64,000 bases of DNA. Source: Pseudobacteriovorax antillogorgiicola. Its GTDB lineage: Bacteria; Bdellovibrionota_B; Oligoflexia; Oligoflexales; RGVZ01. Where the stretch lies: NCBI GenBank assembly GCA_945898195.1, contig CAMDHM010000001.1, positions 124,001 to 188,000 of the forward strand, written 5' to 3'. Positions 5,515-10,130 of the stretch are shown here, one piece after another. Every line of letters begins with the position of its first letter. Positions within the stretch are counted from its first letter, which is position 1. Made by a program: the position numbers and the translations under genes. Below the pieces are notes generated by a model that did no database searches, had not been told where the DNA came from, and saw nothing but the letters and a program-made list of their open reading frames with translations.

Positions 5515-5769
5515 ATGGCAGCATTCGATTTAAAAGCGTGGGCCGGAGGCCTATTTTTTTTCATTCTTTCCATTGGCCGACATCATTCCACGGTCAACCA
5601 GTTTCAATCGAATTTCAAAGGTGCCCTTGGGTGGGAGCGTAATTATGTGCAATGCGCCCAAACCAATTCAAGTGAAGGGTGCACCGCCCAGGAGGTCGCA
5701 AATGCGCGGATAGCACATCGTCGCGCTGGAATCGAAGTGATCTTTCGAAGCATCTCATCAAGGAAGTGA
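5515..5769 (+). CDS. Small membrane protein of the secretin locus
   Basis: 84 aa. GGGAGG ends eight bases before the ATG at 5515; the in-frame TTG just upstream is less likely. A single hydrophobic helix (residues about 9-20, AWAGGLFFFILS) follows a short N-terminus, then a polar region with two cysteines (CAQTNSSEGC) that could form a disulphide. I recognise no family. It starts a chain of four closely packed genes leading to the secretin-like gene, so a pilin-like, minor-pilin or assembly role is possible but not shown by sequence. Confidence 0.55.
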   Translation: MAAFDLKAWAGGLFFFILSIGRHHSTVNQFQSNFKGALGWERNYVQCAQTNSSEGCTAQEVANARIAHRRAGIEVIFRSISSRK

Positions 5770-5773
5770 AAGC

Positions 5774-5932
5774 GTGGAATTTTTTTTTGCAGTTTTGGTC
5801 GTCATCGCTGGTTTCGATCTCTGGATGGTGGACTGGTCCATTATGGTCTCCAAGGTTGCGATCTCAATGAATGAAACAGCGGGGGAGGCGGCGTTGATTG
5901 AAGGGGCAAAAAACCTTGAGGATGACCATTGA
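5774..5932 (+). CDS. 52-aa single-helix membrane peptide of the secretin locus
   Basis: Starts with GTG at 5774, with AAGGAAG eight bases upstream, four bases after the previous stop. The first 25 residues are almost wholly hydrophobic (VEFFFAVLVVIAGFDLW), followed by a polar acidic tail ending NLEDDH. Size and layout are like a pilin-type or TadE-type N-terminus, but no conserved processing motif is visible. Its TGA overlaps the TTG start of the next gene (TTGA), which argues for translational coupling and that the frame is real. Confidence 0.55.
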   Translation: MEFFFAVLVVIAGFDLWMVDWSIMVSKVAISMNETAGEAALIEGAKNLEDDH

Positions 5933-6393
5933 CTCGGGCCGGATGGAAGGATTTTTTCGGCGTGGCTGGTGTCAGGGCAGAGGTTGTGCTGGTCTCGCTG
6001 GCGACACATTTTACGGCGGTACTGCTTGGCATCTCCGCAGCAACCGTTCTTGAGGGCGATGCTTGGCCTGCGGCTGCATTGCGACTGGATAGTCCATCGC
6101 TGCTTATCGGTCTGCCGACGGAGCGTTCGGATATCGGCTCATTTGTACCTGGGGACAAGGTCAAATTGGTGAAGCCTGGGGGCGAACCCTGTGCGTTTCA
6201 GAGCAAAGCGATGAGTTTACTTTCGGTGACCCCAGTCGTTTTGGTTGCCCAAAACCTTGACGCAGTCAATGGCGAGGACATTCGGGCCTTGGCGGAATGG
6301 ACGTCCTCCGCCGGCACGCGGGTCGCGCTTGCTGGGGCAAAGGCCATAAAGTGTAAGGATGCAGCTCAGCTGGATGTCGTGGTGGATCGGTAA
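5929..6393 (+). CDS. CpaB/RcpC-like pilus assembly protein (short form)
   Basis: 154 aa from a TTG start; GAGGA lies six bases upstream. A transmembrane helix (about residues 18-38) is followed by a region with GSFVPGDKVKLVKPGG, which resembles the SAF-like part of CpaB (the ..PGDrVDV.. motif), and a C-terminal stretch LLSVTPVVLVAQNLDAV that fits the end of RcpC/CpaB proteins. The usual CpaB is 250-300 aa, so this is a reduced version, and the similarity is weak. It lies directly before a secretin-like gene, which is where CpaB stands in Tad/Flp loci. It would sit in the inner membrane or periplasm and help position the secretin. Confidence 0.5.
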   Translation: MTRAGWKDFFGVAGVRAEVVLVSLATHFTAVLLGISAATVLEGDAWPAAALRLDSPSLLIGLPTERSDIGSFVPGDKVKLVKPGGEPCAFQSKAMSLLSVTPVVLVAQNLDAVNGEDIRALAEWTSSAGTRVALAGAKAIKCKDAAQLDVVVDR

Positions 6394-6434
6394 GTTCGAT
6401 CTTAATGCGGAACCTATCGCGAGGAGAATTTGAA

Positions 6435-7565
6435 TTGAAGGCAGTGTGGCTAGTGTTTTTTCTCCTATGGACATTGATTTTGCCGGAGGCAGCTCAGGCG
6501 ATGCCAATTCCCCAAAAAAAAAGGTTAGCTCTTGGTGAGACCATTCGCCTCAAATTGCCCGCCGTGGAAAGGGTTCGATTGAGTCGCGATGGAATCGTTA
6601 TCGCCCGGCATGGTTCTGGGGATGAATGGTTATTGACGGGAACGGCAAAGGGAATTGTCCTGATTCATCCCGATGGGGGAGTGGCGGGTGAGAGAGAAAT
6701 TGTCCTCGAGGTCTTCGCTCCTCAGAGCCATCCAGGGTCGCAGCGTTCTATCCGAACGGTTCAGGATCCAAAGGACTCACTGGGTTGCGATGGAATCGCC
6801 TCGCGTTTTGGTGCCTTTGAATTCCGTGTCTCGATGGATTCTCGACGACTGGCAACGGAGGCTGGCCTTGCACCTCGCATTGAATATACGGCGCAAGCCA
6901 ATGTGGTGTCTGGCGGGAATTCAGTCAGTATCGGGCGTGGAAGTTTCGGTGTTGCAGCGAGGGATATTTCCGGTCGTATGGATTCAAATGTGATTGCGAA
7001 GCCCCGCCTTGTACTTTTCCCGGGTGTTGAAGCCGCCGCTCGCAGTGGAGGTGAATTTCGGATCGACGCTCCGGTGTTTGCTCAAGCATCTGGCAATGGC
7101 AATGGCAATCCAAACGGCGTTTTCCCAGGAAGGATGGATGTCTGGAAGGAATATGGCCTAGCCGTCCGAGCCAAGTGGACGGAGTGCGTGCGGGAGAGTG
7201 CCGTTGTCGAATATGAGGTTTCTGTTACGCAGCGTATTTCTGGGAATGAACAGCATTTGCTCGCGGGCCGAATTTCTGGAAAGAGGGCAATCATGGCGGG
7301 AGATAGAGCGTTTGGTGGTGCCGTTGAATTTGCCTCGGGCGCCCGTTCCCGGCAGGGCTCTTACTTGCTCCGCGGCATTCCCATTCTTGGGCCAATGCTC
7401 TCGAAGCGTGACGACGAAAACGGTGAGACCACGATGACCGTGTGGGTGCAGGCGTTGGATGACTCCACTGCTGGGCAAGGATATTTGCCGTCAGATCGGT
7501 CGGAAGCTTTAGAAGTCGATTTTGGCGCCGGTGGTGACGAGGGTTCTGGAAAACCCGTCGAATGA
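6435..7565 (+). CDS. Secretin-like outer-membrane channel (CpaC/RcpA type)
   Basis: 376 aa. The TTG at 6435 is chosen because GAGGAG lies eight bases before it and it opens a clean signal peptide (KAVWLVFFLLW...EAAQA). Residues about 28-85 (RLALGETIRLKLPAVERVRLSR...EWLLTGTAKG) fit the pilus/secretin N-terminal domain found in CpaC. The C-terminal half has the order seen in secretins: AKPRLVLFPG, then GGEF, then a beta-rich part, and finally SYLLRGIPILGPMLS and ETTMTVWVQA. The family forms ring channels in the outer membrane through which Flp-type fibres pass. At 376 aa it is shorter than most CpaC (450-500). No CpaF ATPase or TadB/C is next to it. Its last 57 bases overlap the end of the opposing gene. 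Confidence 0.65.
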   Translation: MKAVWLVFFLLWTLILPEAAQAMPIPQKKRLALGETIRLKLPAVERVRLSRDGIVIARHGSGDEWLLTGTAKGIVLIHPDGGVAGEREIVLEVFAPQSHPGSQRSIRTVQDPKDSLGCDGIASRFGAFEFRVSMDSRRLATEAGLAPRIEYTAQANVVSGGNSVSIGRGSFGVAARDISGRMDSNVIAKPRLVLFPGVEAAARSGGEFRIDAPVFAQASGNGNGNPNGVFPGRMDVWKEYGLAVRAKWTECVRESAVVEYEVSVTQRISGNEQHLLAGRISGKRAIMAGDRAFGGAVEFASGARSRQGSYLLRGIPILGPMLSKRDDENGETTMTVWVQALDDSTAGQGYLPSDRSEALEVDFGAGGDEGSGKPVE

Positions 7566-10130
7566 TGATGGGCTAGAGGTGGCAATGCTTTGATTCGTTG
7601 TTAGATTGAAGGTTATAAATGGCGTTAAGTTGTGTTCGTAGTCTAGGCCAAACATTGCCTGCGTTTGAGTTAGGGGAACTTTAAGTATTTCAGAGTCACC
7701 TGTTGATATGCTTCTGCTGATGCTTTTTGCGCCAATGTGAAAGGAAAGTATGGCTCGATCTAGCACTTTTTTTGCCATCAAAAATTTTACGTTTGATAAT
7801 TGAATTGGGCCTGTTCCATCTGGAAATAATTCTCGCGCTGCGGCGATTTTTTCTCCGGTGATAGACACTTGGGTTCTACCCCTGCTTTCGGCTTCAAGTG
7901 AGTTTGGCCCGAATGGGATTAGTTTGAGTTGTATGCGAGAAATAGCCGCCGTATCATCCGCAGAGCCAGACGTCTCGCCGGTCATGTAGTCGATCACGTG
8001 TTCAAGATTTGGCTGTGGGTCGACGGCTCTGCCTCGTTTATACGAAAGTTCCAAGCCAAGGAACCATGGTATAGACAAAGACAATCCTGCCCCTGCTTCA
8101 TCATGAACCCTTTGATTGCCGACTCCGCCCATAATCATATAACCGTTGACGCCAAGATCCATGATCGGGGATCGACCGCTTGAGTTCTCCGTTATTGGTC
8201 GGCGAGATGCCAGCGTATAAAATACTCCAACTTGGCCCCCGTAGGTGCTGAGGCCATAATTCGTAAGGTCAGATTTTAAATATCCGCTCTGCTCCAAGTT
8301 TAATTTGAATTCAATTCCAAATCGGTTTTGATCATCTTGCTGCGATTCATCGTTTGCTGATCCCCGCGACATGAAGCCAAGGGAGCCATACCAGGAGGCG
8401 GTCTGATTGTGCGTGACGCCTGCCGGGAGAGAGACCGAGTTGCCCGGGTTTTTGAGTCCAAAGATGTTTGAATTGTAACCGACGTCTAATTTTGCAAATC
8501 CCGAGGCTCCCGGCAGAAGGTCAATTTTCTTCAGAAGCAAACGGGCCTCCTCTTTTACCTCTACCGTGGGCCCGTTGGCCGCGGCTCGTGGCAAATAAAG
8601 CCTTGCGCAATGACGGAATTCACCGAGGGCGCAAGATTTTCCAACCATGTAGGAACGTTCCCCGTTGAACTCCGGATCGTTCATCCATCCGTCAAGATTT
8701 GCGGCATTGAAGTGGATCGCGGCGGTGGTCCATGATTTTTTTCTGAAATAAAGGACACCAAGCATGATTTCGGCGGCGCTTTTAGCATCATAGGATCCTG
8801 CGCCATTGGACTTATTGCGTATTGCGAGAGATTTTTGTAGCCACTCCTCGCCCTCGGCCAGCAGCAGCATTTCCACATAACATCGTCCAATCAAGTAGGT
8901 GGCCTCATCACTTTTTACAGCATCATCGGACCGGTACAAGAGCGGCTCGATTGCCAACCATGGATCGCCCTCACCCAATGCAGCTTTTGCGGATTTTATG
9001 GCATCTTTTATTGATGCAGGGACACGGTTGCGAAGGAAGGGGAATTGCGCCGGATTTGTTGCCTCGCGCTTCTCCAGGTATTGTGGGGTCGTGGTACGAA
9101 TGACTCCGGCGATGACCTCTTGTTCCGCCGGAGAGGTGGTCTGCTCTGGACGTCCTGGATCGTCTCCGCTAGCCGTCGTTGTGATTTTTAATCTGACGGT
9201 GCTTCCTTGAACAATTTTGAAGAAGGTGTTTTCGTCCGCTTGCCCTTTGAAGTCGTGTTCGGCGTGAATGCGAATGTTGCCTCGAAGGGCGGTGACCAGA
9301 AGGTGATCATCCGGTAGCCGTTGAACGATAAGGTCCCGTCGGCCCTCACTGCGGAAGACGAAACCACCCGCTGCGATGTCCCATCCTTGATCGGTGCTGC
9401 CGAGGGTCCGAGAGCGGATGGTACCCCGTTCGAGGCGCAGCGTTCCACGTCCACCTTTTTTGCCTCCCAGCCTTGCCATGCTTCCCTCAAGCAGCCAAGT
9501 CTCATCGGACCCGGCAAGCCATATTTTCATCAGGCCTGGTATTCCCGTCCGAACTGCATCCGACGAGCCAAACTGTTCTGTCTCCTGACCTATGATGTGA
9601 ACCACCGAGCGGCTGTGGGAGAATGTTCGACCTTGAACTGATGTTAATGAGTGGGCCGACAAACTCGTCTCTAATTTTTGCTTGGAGGTGCTATCGGCGT
9701 CCTTTTGTTCGTCGGAGGGTTGTTCAGAGGGAACGGTGATTTCTTTTGATGCCTTACCCAGAACGGGATTCGCTAATTTGAGATTGAATTTGAGGCTGTC
9801 CGATCCTGCATCATCGAACACCACGATATAAACAGCGTGGTTTCCTGGGGCGAGAGAGGATGTTTTTAGCGTGCAAAAGGCATCGCGACAAATGAGCGAC
9901 TGCGATCGAATGACCCACTTGGCCTGGGGAAAAAGATTTTTGTTTGATGTGTATTCTATTTTCAATTTCAAGATGTCGCCGCGGTTGGCGGTAACTAGAA
10001 ATGGTGGCCCTGCGATAATTTTTGGTGTTTGAATGGGAGGCGAGGTTTCGGCGATAGCTGCAGCTGCCCCGACCAGCCAATAGGCAGCAAGCCCCAAGAT
10101 AAACCAATCAGCCTTTAGATAGTGCTTCAT
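7509..10130 (-). CDS. FecR-TPR-beta-barrel outer-membrane protein
   Basis: 873 aa with a signal peptide (about 1-28). The order of parts is: a beta-rich N-terminal domain (about 40-125), a Ser/Gln-rich linker, a FecR-type domain (about 190-310, including GTIRSRTLGSTDQGWDIAAGGFVF split by turns), a helical TPR-like region (about 370-540, GEGDPWLAIEPLLY, YLIGRCYVEMLLLAEGEEW) and a long C-terminal beta-barrel-like region ending in TLVTTGAKIDF, where the final aromatic is the usual outer-membrane signal. FecR domains are often sensors or cell-wall binders, and TPR-barrel fusions are often surface or secretion proteins. It is the last gene of a minus-strand run after rsmD and coaD and is convergent with the secretin gene, so it may belong to the same envelope machine. 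Confidence 0.7.
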   Translation of the reverse strand: MKHYLKADWFILGLAAYWLVGAAAAIAETSPPIQTPKIIAGPPFLVTANRGDILKLKIEYTSNKNLFPQAKWVIRSQSLICRDAFCTLKTSSLAPGNHAVYIVVFDDAGSDSLKFNLKLANPVLGKASKEITVPSEQPSDEQKDADSTSKQKLETSLSAHSLTSVQGRTFSHSRSVVHIIGQETEQFGSSDAVRTGIPGLMKIWLAGSDETWLLEGSMARLGGKKGGRGTLRLERGTIRSRTLGSTDQGWDIAAGGFVFRSEGRRDLIVQRLPDDHLLVTALRGNIRIHAEHDFKGQADENTFFKIVQGSTVRLKITTTASGDDPGRPEQTTSPAEQEVIAGVIRTTTPQYLEKREATNPAQFPFLRNRVPASIKDAIKSAKAALGEGDPWLAIEPLLYRSDDAVKSDEATYLIGRCYVEMLLLAEGEEWLQKSLAIRNKSNGAGSYDAKSAAEIMLGVLYFRKKSWTTAAIHFNAANLDGWMNDPEFNGERSYMVGKSCALGEFRHCARLYLPRAAANGPTVEVKEEARLLLKKIDLLPGASGFAKLDVGYNSNIFGLKNPGNSVSLPAGVTHNQTASWYGSLGFMSRGSANDESQQDDQNRFGIEFKLNLEQSGYLKSDLTNYGLSTYGGQVGVFYTLASRRPITENSSGRSPIMDLGVNGYMIMGGVGNQRVHDEAGAGLSLSIPWFLGLELSYKRGRAVDPQPNLEHVIDYMTGETSGSADDTAAISRIQLKLIPFGPNSLEAESRGRTQVSITGEKIAAARELFPDGTGPIQLSNVKFLMAKKVLDRAILSFHIGAKSISRSISTGDSEILKVPLTQTQAMFGLDYEHNLTPFITFNLTTNQSIATSSPSSFDGFSRTLVTTGAKIDF

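Follow-up and report, generated by a model that had tools for sequence, protein, structure and literature searches.

A small secretin locus of Pseudobacteriovorax antillogorgiicola reads as a reduced copy of an order-wide Oligoflexales envelope module

Introduction

Secretins serve several types of machines, namely type II and type III secretion, type IVa, type IVb and Tad pili, and the exit of filamentous phages. In the Tad machine, the secretin RcpA is bound by RcpC, an inner-membrane-anchored alignment ring (PMC12307814). The Tad pilotin is the TPR protein TadD, which binds the last residues of RcpA and takes up the C-terminus in its TPR groove (PMC10499894). A related arrangement is the Kil system of Myxococcus, in which Tad-type parts are dispersed in the genome and a short secretin is accompanied by a single CpaF-type ATPase, and in which platform proteins of the TadB/TadC type as well as pilins are present (PMC8460266).

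Here, we analyzed a stretch of 64,000 nt from Pseudobacteriovorax antillogorgiicola (GenBank assembly GCA_945898195.1, contig CAMDHM010000001.1, positions 124,001 to 188,000; hereafter the window). It contains four small genes, w1 to w4, the last of which encodes a secretin. In the order Oligoflexales the corresponding genes form a module, A-B-C-D, with D as the secretin. Like CpaC/RcpA, the D proteins (320-500 aa) have a signal peptide, a T2SS-T3SS_pil_N-type N-domain and a secretin domain, and most of them have a BON-like middle part, although this middle domain has been lost in family f1. Unlike CpaC/RcpA, they form a separate clade, and neither TadB/C nor CpaB nor a recognizable pilin goes with them. 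Family C resembles RcpC/CpaB, GspC and PilP in its single N-terminal membrane helix, its small periplasmic domain and its position directly before the secretin gene; however, profile comparison relates it to neither CpaB nor GspC of the same order, and it has two invariant cysteines and a V-x-YG motif of its own. The dispersed Tad-type parts, the short secretin and the single CpaF-type ATPase are shared with Kil, but the platform proteins and pilins of Kil are missing here. In contrast to other CpaF/TadA ATPases, this solo ATPase measures about 300 aa, has no FHA or long N-terminal part and has no platform genes.

Results

The four genes lie tightly packed on the forward strand and face a longer gene on the reverse strand. 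The features are as follows.

5515..5769, + strand: w1, ATG start, 84 aa; short membrane helix at the N-terminus and a small domain containing conserved Cys; position of family A
5774..5932, + strand: w2, GTG start, 52 aa; one membrane helix at the N-terminus plus an amphipathic stretch; position of family B
5929..6393, + strand: w3, family C, TTG start, 154 aa; one membrane helix and small domain with two invariant cysteines
6435..7565, + strand: w4, family D secretin, TTG start, 376 aa; signal peptide, pilus-type N-domain and secretin domain, no BON-like middle domain
6435..6500, + strand: w4 signal peptide MKAVWLVFFLLWTLILPEAAQA, by sequence reading, with a predicted AQA cleavage site
6504..6734, + strand: w4 N-domain of the CpaC/T2SS-T3SS_pil_N type, by hhalign
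6981..7448, + strand: w4 secretin domain, Pfam PF00263, residues 193-348 of the 386-aa frame, by alignment
7509..10130, - strand: facing gene, 873 aa; FecR-like domain, TPR and outer-membrane barrel

All four frames between 5515 and 7565 were confirmed as the first-pass annotation had drawn them, including the overlap of w2 and w3 (4 nt) and the GTG or TTG starts of three genes. For w1 there is an alternative TTG one codon 5' of the ATG at 5515, and the longest frame of w4 opens at ATG 6405 (386 aa). Shine-Dalgarno-like purine-rich stretches precede w2, w3 and the TTG of w4, while none precedes the ATG at 6405. Congeners use ATG or GTG where the window has GTG or TTG, and since the start codons are not conserved, we dismissed any meaning of the non-ATG starts.

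Oligoflexales is an order related to predatory bacteria. The genome of the window (G000) is a 2.44 Mb draft in 46 contigs with a completeness of 89.5%, and it was compared within the same-order group G000-G042, in which G001-G003 are congeners represented by metagenome assemblies. The search for the same four genes in relatives was positive: the order of w1 to w4 and of the facing gene is intact in all three congeners, and in the closest informative congener pair dN/dS is about 0.19 for w1, 0.24 for w2, 0.30 for w3 and 0.14 for w4. Given the conserved gene order and these values, w1 to w4 are genuine genes under purifying selection and not chance frames; this includes the two small single-helix genes w1 and w2. 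No gene for CpaF, TadB/C or a peptidase adjoins the locus, in line with the first-pass annotation.

The proposal that w4 is a secretin with a pilus-type N-domain held up by way of its family. Against Pfam PF00263 w4 alone scored 12.2 bits, below the cut-off of 27.5, so that this direct comparison failed, whereas against a D profile built without its own genus it reached 127 bits (best of 200 shuffles, -0.5 bits). PF00263 was found at E <= 0.1 in 16 of the 21 family D members, with a best value of 9.9e-19, and the D profile matched the PDB secretins PilQ (3.5e-18), RcpA (8.2e-11) and GspD (1.5e-10). The secretin domain of w4 carries the motifs SGGEF, WKEYGL and IPILGPM. Its N-domain matched the D N-domain profile, again built without the genus, with an hhalign probability of 97.5%, and the D N-domain in turn matched that of CpaC with 95.9% (E 5e-9; column-shuffled controls at most 0.3%). 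PF13629 is present in the CpaC of the same order. Over the full length, D aligned to Tad CpaC with 98.2%, while with PilQ and GspD the secretin part alone aligned. The alignment shows that the BON-like middle part is missing from family f1, to which w4 belongs. AlphaFold predictions from four-sequence alignments gave pLDDT values of 39.6 for w4 and 38.5 for w3, too low to back a topology or an assembly.

A tree of 64 secretin domains, obtained by a quick search and with several long branches, placed D in a single group against its CpaC, GspD and PilQ counterparts from the same class (SH-aLRT 99). D lay outside the CpaC, PilQ and GspD clades, and the N-domains of PilQ and GspD were not matched by hhalign. 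As judged from sequence, D is thus a secretin homologue that forms its own clade.

The small proteins gave a different picture. A single N-terminal membrane helix and conserved cysteines characterize the proteins of families A, B and C, which measure about 140, 110 and 150 aa, respectively; none of the three families was matched among PDB sequences or in Pfam scans. In family C, two cysteines are invariant and the V-x-YG motif is C-terminal. A family C profile without the genus members recovered w3 (hhalign 97.2%, E 4e-11). In the first-pass annotation w3 had been taken as CpaB-like, a view that did not survive profile comparison: w3 has no Pfam match, and family C aligned to genuine CpaB of the same order with a probability of only 0.2-0.7%, whereas this CpaB, as a control, does match RcpC and SAF profiles. 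Likewise, family C showed no profile similarity to GspC of the same order, and neither RcpC or GspC nor any solved structure was detectably related to it; we therefore rejected w3 and family C as relatives of CpaB or GspC. The congener copies of w1 and w2 (L032-L034) share 35-39% and 35-48% identity with them, respectively. There is no Pfam match for w1. Profile similarity of w1 to family A and of w2 to family B was looked for with hhalign and not found; both are assigned by position alone. A consistent prepilin motif is absent from w1, w2, A and B, and the Flp-type motif occurred in none of w1, w2 and family A and in 1 of 21 family B members. A pilin role for w1 and w2 is hence unsupported, and they lack homology even to families A and B of the order. 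Since neither this role nor the CpaB identity of w3 could be upheld, the "minimal fibre" suggested earlier is unlikely.

Across the order, three genes for small single-helix, cysteine-bearing proteins are followed by the secretin gene, and the order A-B-C-D is conserved across families. Of the 43 order genomes, 37 yielded family C and 31 yielded family A. Outside the order, C was absent from all 340 genomes searched and A from all 15 sister-group genomes. The D-profile search covered 42 genomes, excluding G041, and recovered D in 40 of them (35, plus G040, plus G025, G021 and G015, plus a piece at a contig end in G038); D was not found in G009, which is 66% complete, or in G010. The module thus occurs throughout Oligoflexales and nowhere in the other genomes searched, and its conservation is plainly observed. 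The window locus is best read as a reduced local copy of this order-specific envelope module. In genus g9, D has been relocated beside pilB-pilT-pilC (L041), and A-B-C remain near coaD together with a 257-aa unannotated protein and a TPR-barrel gene. In three g9 loci (L092, L093, L095) the space from gene C to the TPR-barrel gene is taken up by a protein of 257-284 aa; it has no Pfam match (L092) and reads as a small outer-membrane barrel.

We then looked at Tad machinery in the whole genome. Only four PF00482 domains are present in the 89.5% complete genome of the window, and the three congeners have the same count. As all four belong to PilC and GspF, TadB and TadC are absent genome-wide and not only from the surroundings of the locus. 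Six order genomes have two additional PF00482 domains, and CpaB, CpaC and FHA-CpaF loci were read in some of these. Some relatives have a Tad locus (L083, L084) in addition to the A-B-C-D module, so the Tad system and the module are distinct and able to coexist. The genome of the window further encodes GspD and, within a pilMNOP-type cluster, a full PilQ.

On a different contig from w1 to w4, the genome encodes a solo ATPase of 303 aa (C25:17593-18501; L059:5591-6502, - strand). It belongs to the CpaF/TadA family (TIGR03819 E 8.7e-39, PDB CpaF 2.8e-24), its Walker A motif is intact, and it sits in a dprA-smg-topA neighborhood that is conserved order-wide. The search recovered it from 39 of the 43 order genomes, most of which lack TadB/TadC. 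CpaF proteins of the sister group are longer (480-580 aa), with one additional match of 320 aa. A mirror-tree comparison of D and ATPase distances gave a partial r of 0.51, and co-evolution was dropped, as the unrelated control RsmD scored higher with D (0.65). Co-loss was unsupported as well: G010 keeps the ATPase with no D detected, and G015 and G021 have D-like proteins. A link between D and the genetically unlinked ATPase is possible and rests on shared distribution only. Beside the ATPase lie two lipoprotein-like genes of about 295 aa (L059:3733-5522) that have no Pfam match and, among the loci read, occur in the genus of the window only.

The facing gene and the 3' end of w4 share 57 nt (7509-7565). 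Its product matched TPR_12 in Pfam (E 0.0016), and the FecR-like part was assigned by reading only; in the gene family, TPR was found in 5 of 11 members and a BBP2_2 barrel in 1 of 11. A pairing of secretin and facing gene had been considered before, and the linkage proved real: the TPR-barrel gene is the convergent neighbor in the congeners, and it is adjacent to and convergent with D in 11 genomes of four families. About half of the genomes with D lack it, which makes it a linked but non-universal neighbor of the module. A tail-to-tail overlap of 4-60 nt between the two genes occurs in nine genomes and has been kept for long.

Discussion

The first-pass annotation had missed the order-wide spread of the module, the separate secretin clade and the solo CpaF-type ATPase elsewhere in the genome. 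With these at hand, we favor, with a probability of about 0.5, a Tad-related trans-envelope secretin complex that makes no pilus and is possibly driven by the solo ATPase. Here, D (w4) would be exported and form a secretin ring in the outer membrane. C (w3) would be an inner-membrane-anchored periplasmic protein that joins this ring to the inner membrane, and A and B (w1, w2) would probably be anchored partners of the same kind; the pairs RcpC-RcpA and GspC-GspD may serve as models for such a tie. The complex would descend from, or resemble, the outer half of the Tad machine. As there is no TadB/TadC platform in the genome and no pilin was recognized at the locus, it would not assemble a Tad pilus, and since the pilus-building genes for this gate are missing, the module probably serves another export or envelope job. 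Most likely it would span the envelope as a conduit for export or a docking channel, with the solo ATPase as a possible source of energy and the facing TPR-barrel protein as a putative accessory partner in the outer membrane. By analogy to TadD, a pilotin-like role of the latter protein is possible. A bolder version holds that the D ring, its anchored partners A, B and C and, as the motor, the compact solo ATPase make up a fourth, order-specific machine without a TadB/TadC-type platform and without a pilus, encoded at two distant, vertically inherited loci; we regard this version as doubtful.

Part of the evidence can be read as a degenerate Tad pilus with reduced pilins (w1 and w2), a shrunken CpaB (w3) and a CpaC (w4); a thin fibre would persist while the other parts are dispersed. 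The full-length alignment of D to CpaC fits this idea, as do the pilin-like layout of the small genes (N-terminal helix plus small domain), the solo ATPase in the genome, and the example of Myxococcus, where the Kil system is encoded in two clusters and has a short secretin, KilC (PMC8460266). However, the genome lacks TadB/TadC, family C is unrelated to CpaB by profile, A, B, w1 and w2 show no consistent prepilin motif, D branches outside the CpaC of its own class, and some relatives have a Tad locus (L083, L084) as well as the module, which together make a degenerate pilus quite improbable. Type IVa pili offer another home for D, as an accessory secretin that replaces or supplements PilQ. 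PilQ is the best single PDB match of family D, and in g9 D lies beside pilB-pilT-pilC. Yet the genome already has a complete PilQ and a GspD, and D has its own partners A-C and is mostly not near pil genes; an accessory role in type IVa pili thus appears very improbable.

A further alternative is an outer-membrane assembly pair, in which the secretin complex and the FecR-TPR-barrel protein form one complex and the TPR part acts as a TadD-like pilotin. In favor of such a pair, the two genes are neighbors in four families (11 genomes), nine genomes have them with overlapping ends, and even where D has moved in g9, A-B-C have stayed beside the TPR-barrel gene; that TadD, a TPR pilotin, binds the end of RcpA (PMC10499894) is a precedent. 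The same g9 arrangement also counts against it, since the TPR-barrel gene there follows A-B-C and not D. Moreover, about half of the D-bearing genomes do without the gene, and TadD is a small lipoprotein, in contrast to the 873-aa barrel protein found here. We consider a pair of this kind unlikely and retain the Tad-related complex, with the barrel protein as an accessory, as our preferred reading.

A separate secretin clade and three unannotated membrane proteins, kept order-wide without a pilus platform, suggest a further trans-envelope device in addition to the described secretin machines. The module provides a defined gene set for deletion. It also illustrates how standard annotation misses secretin partners that are small and change fast.

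Further D-like proteins were seen in family f7 (L139:7276-8415 and L140:2210-3271). Their N-domain is recognizable and their secretin half is barely seen by profile, and they are possibly a further degenerate form of D.
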